Source: Sedimentisphaerales bacterium (lineage in GTDB: Bacteria; Planctomycetota; Phycisphaerae; Sedimentisphaerales; SM23-30). Taken from it: a stretch of DNA of 34,696 nt. A program made the translations under genes and the position numbers. Below the pieces are notes generated by a model, which had not been told where the DNA came from, searched no databases, and saw only the letters and a program-made list of their open reading frames with translations. The stretch spans positions 1-34,696 of the forward strand of contig JANQJS010000060.1 of NCBI GenBank assembly GCA_028281535.1, written 5' to 3'. This document shows positions 2,485 to 28,249 of the stretch, one piece after another. Positions within the stretch are counted from its first letter, which is position 1. Each line of letters starts with the position of its first letter.

Positions 2485-3228
2485 ATGGATATGAAACTGC
2501 TGGAAACCCGCGATTTAGTCAAAAAATATTCCGGGCGAACAGTTGTCGATAACATTTCTATCGTCGTTCATGACAGAGAAATTGTTGGATTGCTAGGTCG
2601 AAACGGCGCAGGCAAAACAACCACCTTCCGGATGACCATTGGCATGGTCACCCCAGAAGATGGCCAGGTCATTTTTGAAGGACGTGATATCACAAAGCTT
2701 CCCATGTTCAAACGTGCTCGACAGGGAATTGGTTATTTATCACAAGAACCCAGCGTTTTCCAACGACTGACTGTTGAACAAAACCTGCTAGCTATTCTAG
2801 AAACCATGAGCCTGACACGAAAAGAACGAATGAAAACGGCCAACGACCTTATGGGGCAATTCGGTCTTACTAAAATTAAAAATCAGCAAGCTCGCGTACT
2901 CAGCGGTGGCGAAAGACGCAAACTGGAAATCGCCAGAGCACTGGTCACAAAGCCCTCATTGATTCTATTGGATGAACCTTTCAGTGGCGTTGACCCAATT
3001 GCTGTTGAAGATTTGCAACAAGAAATCCGAAGATTGCATCAGGACAAAGGTATCAGTATTTTGATCACGGATCATAATGTGGTCAGAACACTTGAAGTGG
3101 TACACAAAGCTTATATTATTAATGAAGGAACTGTTCTAGCTTACGGAAAGCCTAAAGACCTGGTCAATAACCAGCAGGTTCGATCCGCATACCTGGGCCA
3201 AACGTTTCGAGGTGACGAGTTTAACTAA
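2485..3228 (+). CDS. lptB: LPS export ABC transporter ATP-binding protein LptB
   Basis: LptB is the cytosolic ATPase that, with LptF/LptG, extracts lipopolysaccharide from the inner membrane and pushes it along the LptC-LptA bridge. All ABC motifs are seen: Walker A G38-RNGAGKT-45, Q-loop Gln87, signature LSGGE 139-143, Walker B LILLDE 159-164 and switch His197. The stretches SGGERRKLEIARAL, DEPFSGVDPIAV and ITDHNV are LptB-specific within the branched-chain-like ABC family. At 247 residues it has the family length. Walker A has Arg39 where Pro is usual. GGAG lies 9 bases before the ATG. cdaA follows after 23 bases, so the two are probably one operon. The gene implies an LPS-bearing outer membrane. 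Confidence 0.93.
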   Translation: MDMKLLETRDLVKKYSGRTVVDNISIVVHDREIVGLLGRNGAGKTTTFRMTIGMVTPEDGQVIFEGRDITKLPMFKRARQGIGYLSQEPSVFQRLTVEQNLLAILETMSLTRKERMKTANDLMGQFGLTKIKNQQARVLSGGERRKLEIARALVTKPSLILLDEPFSGVDPIAVEDLQQEIRRLHQDKGISILITDHNVVRTLEVVHKAYIINEGTVLAYGKPKDLVNNQQVRSAYLGQTFRGDEFN

Positions 3229-3251: not shown

Positions 3252-4154
3252 ATGATCTTAGCCGTCATGGACTACATGCAATATCTATACAACTCGTATG
3301 ATCTCATACCCATTCTCATGGAATTGGTGTTGATTGGTATTGTTGTCTACACGGTCATGAGATTTCTAAGGGGCACCGGTGGAGAAAAACTCTTCCGAGG
3401 TATTTTATTTATTGTCTTGGGCTTCTGGGCAATACGACTTTTGACAACTCAATTAGGCTTGGATATGGAACGAATTGAGTTCCTATTCAATTATTTTTTA
3501 TTGATTGTACTTGTGGTCTCAATGATTGCATTTCAACCAGAACTTAGACGCGGGCTCATGCAACTGGGGGGGACCCGGTTTAGCAGAAGCTCTGCACCTG
3601 AAATAGAAAACGTTATTGAGCAAGTGGTTGATTCAGTAGCCCATTTAAGTAGAATTCAAATTGGAGCACTGGTTGCTTTTGAAAGAGAAGTCGGATTAAG
3701 TGATTTTATCGCTACAGGAACACGCTTAAATGCCATCGTTTCGGCGGATTTACTAAATACGATTTTCTGGCCCGGTACACCTCTACATGATATGGGTGTA
3801 ATTATCCGACGGGGAAAATTAACGGCAGCCAGCGTCCAGTTCCCCTTAGCAGAACATGGCGAATTTGACCGCAATCTGGGTTCACGACACCGTGCGGCCA
3901 TCGGGCTAAGCAAAGAAACAGACGCCGTCATCGTTGTCGTTAGCGAAGAAACAGGCCAAATCGGCTTGGCACTGAATGGCAAGCTGGCTAGATTTTTAAC
4001 ATTGGAACAATTACACAAGCAATTATTTGATCTACTAACCTCAGATACTAAAGAGTTAAAAACAATTAAATCTACAAAAGATAAGTCTTCGTCATCTACC
4101 CCAAAAAGCCAGAAGACCTCAACGACGGATTCGGCCAAAGAAAAAGTGAAATAA
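3252..4154 (+). CDS. cdaA: Membrane diadenylate cyclase CdaA (c-di-AMP synthase) with altered DGA motif
   Basis: CdaA condenses two ATP into c-di-AMP at the inner membrane. The 300-residue protein has three N-terminal membrane helices (about residues 20-40, 50-70 and 77-95), then a DAC domain (about 100-265) with the RHR motif R212-H213-R214 in LGSRHRAAIG and the conserved TPLHD segment. The catalytic motif, normally D-G-A, reads D180-M181-G182 (bases 3789-3797): the metal-binding Asp is kept, the next two residues are not. The C-terminus is a Lys/Ser/Thr-rich tail of about 30 residues. It sits 23 bases after lptB and 53 bases before its usual partner cdaR, the classic cdaA-cdaR pairing. A GGGAAA ribosome site precedes the ATG. 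The family is certain; full activity is not. Confidence 0.93.
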   Translation: MILAVMDYMQYLYNSYDLIPILMELVLIGIVVYTVMRFLRGTGGEKLFRGILFIVLGFWAIRLLTTQLGLDMERIEFLFNYFLLIVLVVSMIAFQPELRRGLMQLGGTRFSRSSAPEIENVIEQVVDSVAHLSRIQIGALVAFEREVGLSDFIATGTRLNAIVSADLLNTIFWPGTPLHDMGVIIRRGKLTAASVQFPLAEHGEFDRNLGSRHRAAIGLSKETDAVIVVVSEETGQIGLALNGKLARFLTLEQLHKQLFDLLTSDTKELKTIKSTKDKSSSSTPKSQKTSTTDSAKEKVK

Positions 4155-4207: not shown

Positions 4208-5251
4208 ATGCCTGCCCAAGTAAAAACGGCCATTATGGTCATTATATTAAGTTGCCTGATCTGGGTTTTTGCCGAACGCGAGGTAACCCGCTCAACAACT
4301 CTGGATATTGACATAGTCAAAAGTGTCGAACTATACGAAGATTTACTCGTGCAATTTATTGATGAAGATAACCGACCATTACCATTATCCTCCATTCGTG
4401 TAACATTAACCCTTGAAGGTCCTGCTGGGCGAATACAGCGTATCAACGATGGACGGATCGACAAAAAAGAAATTCTTAACGTTCGTAATATTCTTAAAGA
4501 TGAACCTGAAGAATCCCAGCCACAGAAATATACTGTCGATATCATCAATGATCTTTTTAATAATGGCTTTCAATATGAAGACAATGTCTTTTTAAAAGTA
4601 ACCAACGCGGAACCAGCTAGTTTTGATTTACAAATTCGAAAACTAATCAAAACAACCCTACCCGTAAAAGTATTTAAGCTAGATGGTGCTACGGAACTTC
4701 CTACAGATTTCGTTGAACCATCCACAATTGACGCTTATGTCATCCAAGGTCAGGAACCGGAATTTGCCCAGGTCTTATTAAATTCAGAAAAACAGCTCCA
4801 AGCCTCGAAAGGTGAAATCACTGCAGCCTGTACCATCTCTTTATCACGTTTGGATCAAAGTTTGACAGATCGAATCCAAAAGTTTGATATTAAAGTAAAA
4901 TTAAAACAAGGCGCCGATTTCCTCCCAGAAGAGATAATAAAGTCACCCCGCCTTGGTATTTTACTGCCTGGCGTACTACAGGATAAATATCGTGTTGAAA
5001 TTGAAGACAAATCTCCTCTCACTGAACTTCCATTAAAATTTCGAGGATCAGCCGCAGCGACGGCCAGCTATCGGGATAGTCAGTTTCATTTGCTATTAGA
5101 AATAAACGAAACGGATGCGCCAGGACAATTAATAAACCGGCAACTAAAATATTATCTTCCAATTGATCGCAGTGGAGAATTGGAAATTTTAGATAAGCGT
5201 ACTATTCTGATCCAATTTAAATTGGTGCCAATTGAGCTGGAAGAACTGTAA
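4208..5251 (+). CDS. cdaR: YbbR-domain protein (CdaR-like regulator of CdaA)
   Basis: CdaR/YbbR proteins are anchored by one N-terminal helix and place YbbR repeats outside the membrane, where they modulate the diadenylate cyclase. Here the helix is about residues 5-22 (VKTAIMVIILSCLIWVFAE), followed by EREVTRSTTLDI, the usual start of the first YbbR repeat. The rest is beta-rich and repeats the YbbR pattern about two to three times (for example TLPVKVFKLDGATELPTDF and LTELPLKFRGS). At 347 residues it is within the family range. The sequence is divergent, but position directly after cdaA makes the call strong. A hairpin at 5318-5360 lies between it and fliM. Confidence 0.85.
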   Translation: MPAQVKTAIMVIILSCLIWVFAEREVTRSTTLDIDIVKSVELYEDLLVQFIDEDNRPLPLSSIRVTLTLEGPAGRIQRINDGRIDKKEILNVRNILKDEPEESQPQKYTVDIINDLFNNGFQYEDNVFLKVTNAEPASFDLQIRKLIKTTLPVKVFKLDGATELPTDFVEPSTIDAYVIQGQEPEFAQVLLNSEKQLQASKGEITAACTISLSRLDQSLTDRIQKFDIKVKLKQGADFLPEEIIKSPRLGILLPGVLQDKYRVEIEDKSPLTELPLKFRGSAAATASYRDSQFHLLLEINETDAPGQLINRQLKYYLPIDRSGELEILDKRTILIQFKLVPIELEEL

Positions 5252-9995: not shown

Positions 9996-11834
9996 CTATA
10001 AAGACAAGTTTTCTAACTCGAGCTGATAACGTCGCATCAGTGAGGCTCGACTGACCATGCCGATGAATTTGTGGGGATCTTTCATACTATGCACTGCCAG
10101 ACGATTGACTTCCAATCGTGAGAATTTATCTAAAACCACGTCGAGTGTTTCCTCTGGACCTACGGTTGGCGGTTTATCTCGAGCCAGCTCGCCGGCAACC
10201 ATAAAGGGTAATGCTTCGGGCTGCAAAAGTGCGGTACGAATGTCTTGGGCGATCAACAATCCATGATAATGATTATCTTTATCGAGAACGATAAAATCAG
10301 ACACCTCTAAATCAGCCATCTGCTTGACGACATCCTGCATCGGAGTCTCATCATGTACCACCGCAAAATTAGACTGCATTACCATCTTCACGGTAAGTCG
10401 CCTTAACACCGCGGTATTCGCTCGCGTTTCATATTGCACACCTCGCCGTCGAAGCTTTAAGGTGTAAATAGAATCATGATAAAGTTTACGTGCTAAAATC
10501 AGCGCAACCGTCGCACTCAACATTGCTGGCAAAATTACTTTATAATCACCAGTCATTTCCAGTAGAATCAAAATAGATGACATAGGTGAATGCGTAGTCG
10601 CTGCAACCACAGAAGCCATACCGACTAAAGCATAGGATGATGGTGAAATATTTTCAAATAATCCCAGATTTTGTACACCGAGCCCAAAGGCATATCCAAC
10701 AACCGCACCAATAAATAGCGATGGCGCAAACACACCGCCACTTCCTCCACTACCTAACGTTAAACAGGTTGCCAATATTTTCATGGCCACCAATAAAATT
10801 AAAACCCACATCGTCAGATTAATATCGGCATTCCCCTCAGCAGTAGGAGCACCAATACATTGACCAATAACAGGATACCCATTACCAAAAATCAATGGTT
10901 GTGATTGACCATTACTTAAAATGGACACCATAACGATCCCCAAAATTCCTAATCCTACAGCTCCAATGACAGGTTTTAAGATGTAATGAACCTTGTTTAA
11001 TTTCTCAAACAGATCTTCTGATAAATACAACAACCGAATGAAAGCGATTGCTGCTGCTGCACATAATAATCCCAATAAAATATAATTTCCCATCTCCTGC
11101 CATTGGAATAATAAATTACCCTTATTCACAACAGGGAAGATAGCATTCGCCTTTCCAAGCAAGGCTTCGGTTGTCACAAAACTCATTACTGAAGCAATCA
11201 TCAGAGGTGCAAAGGTGCGAAAATTCAATTCACGCAAGAAAATTTCTAATGCAAAAAGTACCCCGGCAATCGGTGCATGGAAAATAGCTGAAATTCCAGC
11301 AGCCGCACCGCAACCAACCAAAACCCCCATATTATGCTTGACCACCTGAAACGTTTTACCCGTAGCCGAACCTATCGCTGAACCAATTTGAATAATCGGT
11401 CCTTCTGTCCCGGCACTTCCGCCAGTACCAATGGTTAACGCTGAAGCAATCGCTTTGGCAACAGCCACGCGCGGTCGAATCACGCCATCCCTTCGGGCAA
11501 TCGCATCCATCACTTCGGGCACGCCATGACCTTTTGCTTCTCGAGCGAAATAGTAGGTAATGAGCCCCACCAATAAAGCACCGCTTGCTGGAAGTAATAT
11601 CAGGAAAATTAGCCTACCACCATAGAGCCCTGCATGTTCGGCATCCCCATAGCAAAAGCCATGTGCCGTATGAATTAGCTTGGTAAAAACGATCGACCCT
11701 AAGGCCGTAAGTATGCCAATCACACCAGCCAGAACAATCAGGTAAGCATCTTCGCTGAATCCCAATCGTTTGAGTAGCTTGGCAAATTTGACTCTTAGTT
11801 TACCGCCCCGGTTCGTGGGCCTATCTGTCGGCAT
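9996..11834 (-). CDS. ClC-family chloride channel or antiporter with C-terminal CBS pair
   Basis: ClC proteins move chloride (often in exchange for protons) or related anions across the inner membrane. The 612-residue protein has a membrane part (about 25-450) with GHGVPEVMDA (102-111), IGTGGSAGTEGPIIQIGSAI containing the gating glutamate Glu144, and the GGSGGVFAPSLFIG anion-binding loop, then two CBS domains (about 485-605) that usually sense adenine nucleotides. The filter motif GSGIP reads GHGVP (His103 in place of the central Ser), as in one bacterial ClC subgroup, and the residue before Glu144 is Thr rather than Arg/Lys. It starts back-to-back with bioA about 130 bases away. Confidence 0.92.
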   Translation of the reverse strand: MPTDRPTNRGGKLRVKFAKLLKRLGFSEDAYLIVLAGVIGILTALGSIVFTKLIHTAHGFCYGDAEHAGLYGGRLIFLILLPASGALLVGLITYYFAREAKGHGVPEVMDAIARRDGVIRPRVAVAKAIASALTIGTGGSAGTEGPIIQIGSAIGSATGKTFQVVKHNMGVLVGCGAAAGISAIFHAPIAGVLFALEIFLRELNFRTFAPLMIASVMSFVTTEALLGKANAIFPVVNKGNLLFQWQEMGNYILLGLLCAAAAIAFIRLLYLSEDLFEKLNKVHYILKPVIGAVGLGILGIVMVSILSNGQSQPLIFGNGYPVIGQCIGAPTAEGNADINLTMWVLILLVAMKILATCLTLGSGGSGGVFAPSLFIGAVVGYAFGLGVQNLGLFENISPSSYALVGMASVVAATTHSPMSSILILLEMTGDYKVILPAMLSATVALILARKLYHDSIYTLKLRRRGVQYETRANTAVLRRLTVKMVMQSNFAVVHDETPMQDVVKQMADLEVSDFIVLDKDNHYHGLLIAQDIRTALLQPEALPFMVAGELARDKPPTVGPEETLDVVLDKFSRLEVNRLAVHSMKDPHKFIGMVSRASLMRRYQLELENLSL

Positions 11835-26437: not shown

Positions 26438-28249
26438 TCAATCGTCATTAACTTCTGTTAAAAATAGTAGCTTACTTTTCACCTGAACCTCAGGTGAATC
26501 ATTCAATGTCACAGGCTGAAGTTGATTTGTAGAGGTTATCACAAATAGCTCAATACAATTATCTTGATATTGCTGCTTGAACATATCATACGTATATTCT
26601 TCAGTAATGTTGGTGGTTTTAATTTGTACTTTTTCTAACCGCTTCAATAAATCTAAATGCCAGTAATCAACTCCGTCTTTAAATAAATATCGCCCTCGTA
26701 AATGACGTGCCGTTTGAATCACATCTTTATGTTTCGTTTTGGGCTGCAACTGATAGATTTCACTTCGCCCAAATAATTCGATACAATGCAAGCCCGATAA
26801 TGAGTTAGCCTGATCATTAGATGTCATTGCCATCAATCGCTTAATACCTGATAAATTCATATATTCAATCGCATGTTCTGAAACCAAACTACCATGATAG
26901 GTCGTAAACCCTTCCATACGTGCTTGCGAAATATTATCATAATTTGTATCGGTTAATATCACATCAAACCCTTGCTTCTTGACTTCAGCTGCGATCAATC
27001 TCACCATTTTATGTGCCCCGACAAACAAAACACCTTGCGGGTTTTCATTAACTAACTCTAATTTACGCGCGATGGGGTTTGCAAACAAAGCACAAAACGT
27101 TATTGTACCAATAATCACTAAAAACATATTAGGAACGAGCATGCCAGCTTGTTCTGTCAGAGGTGCTAAATCAATGGCAATAACAGAAATGACTGCCGCT
27201 GCGACAATCCCACGCGGCGCGATCGCTGAAAGAAATAATTTTTCCTTAAGTGTTAAGTTCGATTTAAATGTGGAGATAAAGACCGTTGCCGGACGAACCA
27301 CACCAATCAAAACAAACAAAAATAGAAAACTACGCCAATCCAATTGCGAGATCTGCTCGGGACTTAAACGCGCTGCAAGTAATATGAATAAAACGGAAAT
27401 TAAAAGAACACGTAAATTTTCCTTGAATTCAATGATATGCTGAATAGAAACAAATTTCTGATTTGCCAGAATGATTCCCATTAAGGTCACCGTTAACAAA
27501 CCTGATTCATGTTCAATTTGATTCGATGCGGCAAAAGCAATGGCAACAAAGGCCAAGGTTGCCGGAACTTGTAAATAATCTGGTATCCAATAACGTTTCA
27601 ATAAGAAAATTAATAAGATACAACCAATGCCCCCCAACACGACAGCGATTAAAATAGATTTTAAAATAATCAGAGTTACCGAAGCTGCCGCCATATCAGG
27701 ACCAACTAATATGGCCTCTAATACCAGCACCGCGATGATAGCACCGATAGGATCATTAACGATCCCTTCCCACTTCAACAAACTTCCAAGCGACCCCGAC
27801 GGGCGAACTTGTCGCAATAATGGAATAATGACAGTGGGCCCTGTTACAATTAGCATGGCACCAAATAAAAGTGATAGTGGCCAGGTAAAACCTAAAATCA
27901 AATGAGCAAAGAAACTCACCAACGCCCAGGTAACTATTGCACCTAGAAACAATAGTTTTGTAACTACACCCCCGATACTATTTAACTCAGAAAATTTTAA
28001 ACTGAGTCCACCTTCAAATAGTATGATACCCACCGACAGGGACACAAATGGAAAGAGTAAATTCCCCATTAACAGATCAGGATCAAGAAGTCGTTTATCA
28101 AATAACCAAACGGCCACCGGACCTGCCAAAAGACCAAAAATCAACAAAGGCAAAATCGAAGGTAATTTTAAACGCCAGCCTAACCATTGCGCACCAATAC
28201 CAATGCTAATCACACAGGCCAGGGCAATGAGTAAATGATGCTCCGTCAA
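26438..28249 (-). CDS. Cation/proton antiporter (CPA1, NhaP-like) with a TrkA-N domain
   Basis: The 603-residue membrane protein exchanges Na+ or K+ for protons. The first ~395 residues hold about a dozen helices with GPTVIIPLL (137-145) and the ion-binding Asn165-Asp166 in EGIVNDPIGA, the CPA1 pattern. Residues about 405-500 form a TrkA-N Rossmann domain (GVLFVGAHKMVRLIAAEV, then DVILTDTNYDN and MAMTSNDQANSL) that in related proteins senses NAD(H) or nucleotides. A shorter C-terminal region follows. The start is a TTG with AGGAA about 8 bases upstream; no better start exists near the conserved N-terminus. It is likely co-transcribed with the downstream cupin. Confidence 0.9.
   Translation of the reverse strand: MTEHHLLIALACVISIGIGAQWLGWRLKLPSILPLLIFGLLAGPVAVWLFDKRLLDPDLLMGNLLFPFVSLSVGIILFEGGLSLKFSELNSIGGVVTKLLFLGAIVTWALVSFFAHLILGFTWPLSLLFGAMLIVTGPTVIIPLLRQVRPSGSLGSLLKWEGIVNDPIGAIIAVLVLEAILVGPDMAAASVTLIILKSILIAVVLGGIGCILLIFLLKRYWIPDYLQVPATLAFVAIAFAASNQIEHESGLLTVTLMGIILANQKFVSIQHIIEFKENLRVLLISVLFILLAARLSPEQISQLDWRSFLFLFVLIGVVRPATVFISTFKSNLTLKEKLFLSAIAPRGIVAAAVISVIAIDLAPLTEQAGMLVPNMFLVIIGTITFCALFANPIARKLELVNENPQGVLFVGAHKMVRLIAAEVKKQGFDVILTDTNYDNISQARMEGFTTYHGSLVSEHAIEYMNLSGIKRLMAMTSNDQANSLSGLHCIELFGRSEIYQLQPKTKHKDVIQTARHLRGRYLFKDGVDYWHLDLLKRLEKVQIKTTNITEEYTYDMFKQQYQDNCIELFVITSTNQLQPVTLNDSPEVQVKSKLLFLTEVNDD

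Follow-up and report, generated by a model that had tools for sequence, protein, structure and literature searches.

The cdaA gene of a Sedimentisphaerales bacterium encodes a predicted diadenylate cyclase in which the glycine of the textbook D-G-A motif is replaced by methionine. Methionine or leucine takes the place of this glycine in nearly all CdaA sequences that we read from the class Phycisphaerae, together with a second change at the position that stacks on adenine in the Listeria monocytogenes enzyme. Because nearly every relative read in the class shares both the change in the motif and the matching change in the pocket, a working variant is the most likely interpretation. We assign a probability of roughly 72% to an enzyme that still makes c-di-AMP but has a rebuilt adenine pocket, in which the hydrophobic residue would have moved from position 187 to position 172; it would be the standard CdaA of the class.

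The cdaA gene, its active site, and its neighbors

The gene is located at positions 3252-4154 on the forward strand of the window (the whole stretch of DNA that was analyzed, 34,696 nucleotides) and encodes a protein of 300 amino acids, with an N-terminal hydrophobic region followed by a DAC domain (PF02457, 3.9e-35 in Pfam). The hydrophobic stretches are visible by eye and, by our reading, form a putative membrane anchor. The protein scores 203 bits against the CdaA equivalog model TIGR00159, above the curated cutoff of 188.8, and it matches 9g69_C, a 292-residue diadenylate cyclase chain in the PDB (1.2e-45). The G-x-RHR-x-A motif, the SEET motif, and the histidine preceding the aspartate are all present; the D-G-A motif, which serves as a signature of diadenylate cyclases, is absent, and D-M-G is found instead. 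Because the curated family model accepts the protein and only the textbook motif fails, we refer to it as a variant CdaA.

Wherever residues are compared across the alignment, they are numbered as in L. monocytogenes CdaA (Lm). The H-D-G-A of Lm 170-173 is replaced by H179-D180-M181-G182 (3786-3797, forward strand), with the codons of D180 at 3789-3791, M181 at 3792-3794, and G182 at 3795-3797. The first-pass annotation of this DNA had claimed that at 3789-3797 the aspartate is kept while Gly becomes Met and Ala becomes Gly, and this is borne out by the codons and by a gap-free alignment, in which TPLHDMGVII is matched to TPLHDGAVI- of four solved diadenylate cyclase sequences (those printed of 17 matched), L. 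monocytogenes CdaA being among the solved enzymes. Since this alignment places D-M-G directly on D-G-A, no D-G-A is aligned elsewhere in the protein, a possibility that the annotation had itself raised. Misalignment of the motif was ruled out by the lack of a gap and by the spacing from His to Arg, which is 33 residues in Listeria and here alike; a frameshift or pseudogene was ruled out by the open frame, the conserved residues, and the intact gene in relatives.

The annotation was also right that RHR is intact at residues 212-214, as the translation confirms; in the segment Ser211-R212-H213-R214 (3882-3893, forward strand), the threonine that precedes this motif (Lm202) is replaced by serine. 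The SEET motif (residues 231-234; 3942-3953, forward strand), which binds ATP and metal, is intact as well. Gln196 (3837-3839, forward strand) aligns with the adenine-stacking Lm Tyr187, a role taken from the accessible part of PMC10167629. The earlier account of the motif noted neither the paired change at Lm187 (Gln196) nor the one at Lm202 (Ser211).

Upstream of cdaA, at a distance of 23 bases, lies a gene for an ABC ATPase (2485-3228, forward strand; PF00005, 3.9e-35), which we take to be LptB-like. An Rfam scan of the window gave no match at the gathering threshold. Downstream, the ORF at 4208-5251 (forward strand) had no match in Pfam even at an E value of 10, and it was identified as a cdaR-like partner, a divergent YbbR-type protein, by iterative profile search via its relatives. 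Seeded with this ORF, jackhmmer recruited 189 of the 214 downstream ORFs identified in the fetched cdaA loci. The downstream ORF of locus L034 joined this set (5.5e-58) and is assigned unambiguously to YbbR by Pfam (3e-17), while none of the three other downstream ORFs scanned in Pfam passed the YbbR cutoff. Of the 65 CdaA loci with a downstream ORF in the outgroup defined below, 52 have a YbbR-type neighbor according to the profile. Because the 4208-5251 ORF groups by profile with the downstream ORFs of relatives, including the YbbR protein of L034, the cdaA-cdaR pair is real but divergent. The earlier claim that the gene pairs with cdaR thus holds, with the YbbR-type neighbor recognized only through relatives.

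Distribution of the variant motif in the class and phylum

Profile searches with PF02457 were carried out in relatives (59 genomes), the class (120 genomes), and the phylum (199 genomes); the genes were fetched, and the motif was read on one alignment. The class was assigned as Phycisphaerae through one named family member (Sedimentisphaerales, an order in Phycisphaerae, Planctomycetota). D-[M/L]-[G/A/S] is present in 150 of the 151 CdaA-type sequences of the class, which come from 148 genomes (HDMG in 63, HDLG in 36, HDMA in 33, HDLA in 17, HDMS in 1, and HDGA in 1). In the outgroup, which consists of 67 sequences from 66 of the approximately 175 phylum genomes with a match, mostly the better-scoring among the matches listed, plus L034 and L035, which were put outside the class by judgment, D-G-[A/G] is present in 69 of 69 (HDGA in 61, HDGG in 7, and QDGA in 1), or D-G in 67 of 67 without these two. 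Position 172 is Met or Leu in all class sequences but one and Gly throughout the outgroup, a split far beyond chance. A duplicate locus (L033, the same as L037) and a truncated gene (L051) were excluded from the census, and the class counts do not include additional second matches of the 120-genome search that were weak or of DacZ scale.

Counted by genome, a CdaA-type gene was readable in 115 of the 120 class genomes (all except G081, G086, G103, G123, and G156), and the variant is present in 115 of 115. Every CdaA-type sequence read is the variant in 114 of them; the other genome, G116, contains the single class exception, L154, in addition to its variant gene. L154 (728-2950) is a second CdaA-like gene, long and divergent, whose frame spans 741 residues; it has HDGA but GTRHA, and His at the stacking position. 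A different deviation was observed in the class family f23, where five of the seven cyclases read (L148, L150, L151, L219, and L229) have GSRHL for GSRHR, and three of these five sit in frames of 616-882 amino acids.

The census covers Planctomycetota and, in addition, eight plasmid-borne DACs from other phyla. These eight (read of 30 matches to the CdaA query; Bacillota, Bacteroidota, and Cyanobacteriota) all have HDG, and their position 187 is hydrophobic or aromatic in seven and Lys in one, L262, a DAC from a Pontibacillus plasmid with HDGA and GTRHL. Among viral contigs, none of 54 candidates was confirmed.

The change is class-wide, which rules out a peculiarity of a single genome. The first-pass annotation had proposed a lineage-specific functional variant under selection and suggested aligning DAC domains from related genomes. 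In this alignment the motif is near-fixed in the class, so the proposal is supported, with two corrections: the lineage is the whole class rather than one organism, and D-M-G is one of the combinations covered by D-[M/L]-[G/A]. The annotation had also named, as an objection, that D-M-G could turn out to be widespread and active in enzymes that have been assayed. On the one hand, the variant is indeed common in the class; on the other hand, we found no assayed D-[M/L] enzyme, and no description of a D-[M/L] CdaA variant, in the accessible literature on diadenylate cyclases and Planctomycetota, in which subscription papers are mostly not included.

A paired change in the adenine pocket

His170, Asp171, Arg203, His204, Ser222, and Glu223 are kept in all 150 variant sequences of the class, and Arg205 is kept in 143 of them. 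In a comparison of columns over the DAC domain (150 class versus 69 outgroup sequences), positions 172 and 187 came out on top, with complete separation, and position 202 was third. Column 212, an invariant Glu outside the class that is variable inside it, separates nearly as well as 202 (0.77 versus 0.78), and we know of no pocket role for it. Position 187 is Gln in 141, Glu in 8, and Pro in 1 of the class sequences (Gln or Glu in 149 of 150), whereas in the outgroup it is hydrophobic (L, F, I, V, or M) in 67 of 69, and the other two, which have Gly172, carry Gly or Thr; the joint state of 172 and 187 is nearly perfect across class and outgroup. Position 202 is Ser in 119, Ala in 22, and Thr in 9 of the 150 class sequences and Thr in 66 of 69 outgroup sequences, and position 188 in the class is Phe or Leu. 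In the accessible part of PMC10167629, Tyr187 of L. monocytogenes CdaA is described as stacking on adenine and as crucial for catalytic activity, and the side chains of Asp171, Tyr187, Thr202, and Glu223 were kept flexible in docking.

Because an AlphaFold2 model (four sequences; mean pLDDT of 44.6) was too poor for use, we judge the proximity of the two positions by beta-hairpin spacing. We read the short stretch between residues 172 and 187 as a hairpin, with a turn near 178-180, and the two residues should be cross-strand or diagonal neighbors. A polar residue at 187 does not require Met or Leu at 172, as seen in L262 (HDGA, Lys187), in L154 (HDGA, His187), and in the two outgroup sequences that combine Gly172 with Gly or Thr at 187.

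A maximum-likelihood tree was built from Listeria and 88 of the 222 CdaA-type rows, 89 rows in total, with columns 172, 173, 187, and 202 omitted. In this tree, 48 of the 50 D-[M/L] rows cluster together (support 93, not starred), and two rows of family f17 lie unresolved beside the cluster. The topology would fit a single origin of the D-[M/L] change, and the states at 172 and 187 may have been inherited together rather than having coevolved repeatedly. Because a single event may account for the change, the link between the two positions is a strong association and not proof of repeated coevolution.

Methionine and leucine at position 172 were swapped several times in the tree, as would be expected if the glycine were of little importance and its replacement by Met or Leu were near-neutral drift, tolerated without functional meaning. 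A precedent also points that way, and it speaks for retained activity of the class variant as well: according to the accessible part of PMC3328451, Mycobacterium tuberculosis DacA keeps its activity when the D-G-A glycine is changed to Ala (G73A), whereas changing RHR to AAA abolishes it. The precedent differs from the class variant, however, in that the new residue is Ala and not Met or Leu and the enzyme is of the DisA type. Drift is hard to reconcile with the near-complete restriction of the class to two residues where the outgroup has only glycine, and with the Gln or Glu at 187 that accompanies the variant in all but one sequence; we regard it as improbable.

Other components of c-di-AMP signaling

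c-di-AMP riboswitches (RF00379) were matched in 31 of the 120 class genomes, 30 of them above the Rfam cutoff and one, G143, below it. Exactly one DAC match was found in 27 of these 31 genomes, and it has D-[M/L]-[G/A] in 27 of 27, although a second DAC gene could be absent from some of the 27 because assemblies are incomplete (e.g., G109, 74%, and G138, 79%). Among the other riboswitch genomes, G145 (weak), G148, and G150 have a second DAC match, and G123 has none. G123 is approximately 91% complete and has two c-di-AMP riboswitch matches; its incomplete assembly may lack the DAC gene. In three of the four riboswitch surroundings that were read (L251 to L254), the downstream gene was recognized: the riboswitch of L251 lies ahead of a gene for the potassium transporter TrkH (1.2e-52), and those of L253 (2.7e-14) and L252 (4.3e-05, just below the Pfam cutoff) precede proteins of the amino acid permease superfamily, which we take to be KimA-like.

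The membrane domain of PgpH-type phosphodiesterases (PF07698) is present in 117 of the 120 class genomes, including the source genome, whose copy carries 7TM and HD domains. RF00379 had no match in the source genome. The window also encodes a Na+/H+ exchanger with a TrkA_N domain (26438-28249) and, on the reverse strand, a ClC channel with CBS domains (9996-11834); both are transporter types that are under c-di-AMP control in other bacteria.

The riboswitches and the phosphodiesterase domain bear on the product of the enzyme. The base pocket is altered by the Met that replaces the glycine and by the Gln at the adenine-stacking position, so that the enzyme might prefer another base or form another product, such as a mixed or other cyclic dinucleotide; the columns that best discriminate the class do sit in the nucleotide pocket. 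However, riboswitches for c-di-AMP and the PgpH-type domain occur in the same genomes. Furthermore, in the accessible parts of PMC10167629 and PMC11066881, it is the main chain of Leu188 in L. monocytogenes CdaA that reads adenine, and the class has Phe or Leu at this position. Because c-di-AMP riboswitches occur where the variant is the only DAC match, a shifted product becomes less likely, and we consider this explanation very unlikely. It is likewise doubtful that a base pocket re-engineered throughout the class, with the clamp moved from 187 to the D-G-A glycine and a polar Gln or Glu at 187, would select bases differently, yield another cyclic dinucleotide, or gate dimer formation in another way.

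The source genome has a second DAC gene, L002 (952-1950; contig C1, near 59258), whose DacZ-like product (DacZ_P, 6.2e-09; DAC, 1.9e-21) has D-G-A intact and RHA replacing RHR. We considered complementary defects of the two genes, a CdaA without D-G-A and a DacZ-like protein without RHR, and dropped the idea. All nine DacZ-like proteins of the family, found in 9 of its 13 genomes including the source genome, carry A or M after RH, and a haloarchaeal DacZ (L264) has RHH; RHA therefore looks normal for DacZ. L055, outside the family, has RHR. In the source genome, the DacZ-like gene could share the c-di-AMP load.

Alternatively, CdaA could be catalytically dead or crippled and be retained for a structural or regulatory role alongside CdaR, with c-di-AMP being made by the DacZ-type cyclase. 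This would fit the source genome and the 8 of 12 other family genomes with a DacZ-like second DAC. It fits the class poorly: 98 of the 120 genomes have a single DAC match (that of G081 being only DacZ-scale), the only DAC found in many of them is of the same type as the CdaA of the source genome, and the 27 riboswitch genomes have the variant only. The complete retention of the catalytic residues would also be unusual for a dead enzyme, and loss of activity is thus an unlikely explanation. Because the class replaces the glycine yet carries the rest of the c-di-AMP system, calling D-[M/L] enzymes inactive from the motif is probably wrong for this class.

Proposed function and comparison with known systems

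The function of CdaA has probably been kept. We infer an active, class-standard enzyme that would be membrane-anchored, would make c-di-AMP from two ATP molecules in a head-to-head dimer, and would work with CdaR and a PgpH-type phosphodiesterase. The canonical hydrophobic side chain over adenine at 187 (Tyr in Listeria; mostly Leu, Phe, Ile, or Val in other Planctomycetota) would have given way to Gln or Glu, and Met or Leu at the former D-G-A glycine would supply the hydrophobic contact in its place. The chemistry would still be performed by Asp171, His170, RHR, and SEET; in Leptospira CdaA, D172A and R203A each abolish activity, according to the accessible part of PMC12974146.

The paired change at the adenine-stacking position can be viewed as a test, set up by nature, of the way in which ATP is held by DAC enzymes, and the affected adenine pocket is a current target of CdaA inhibitors. 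What we describe is a natural rewrite of a textbook motif, conserved class-wide, and not a new kind of system.

The closest comparison is with CdaA/DacA (TIGR00159) of L. monocytogenes and B. subtilis, with which the class variant shares the DAC domain, the H-D, RHR, and SEET motifs, the cdaR-type neighbor, and the architecture. In contrast to these enzymes, the class has Met or Leu for Gly172, often Gly for Ala173, Gln or Glu for Tyr187, and Ser or Ala for Thr202. The CdaA proteins of other Planctomycetota (L089-L118, L159-L178, L230-L246, L034, and L035) belong to the same phylum and gene family, but unlike the class variant they keep D-G-[A/G] and, in all but two, a hydrophobic residue at 187. 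The archaeal-type DacZ/CdaZ, represented by L002 in the source genome, has the DAC domain in common with the CdaA variant and differs from it in its DacZ_P sensor domain, its intact D-G-A, and RHA in place of RHR.
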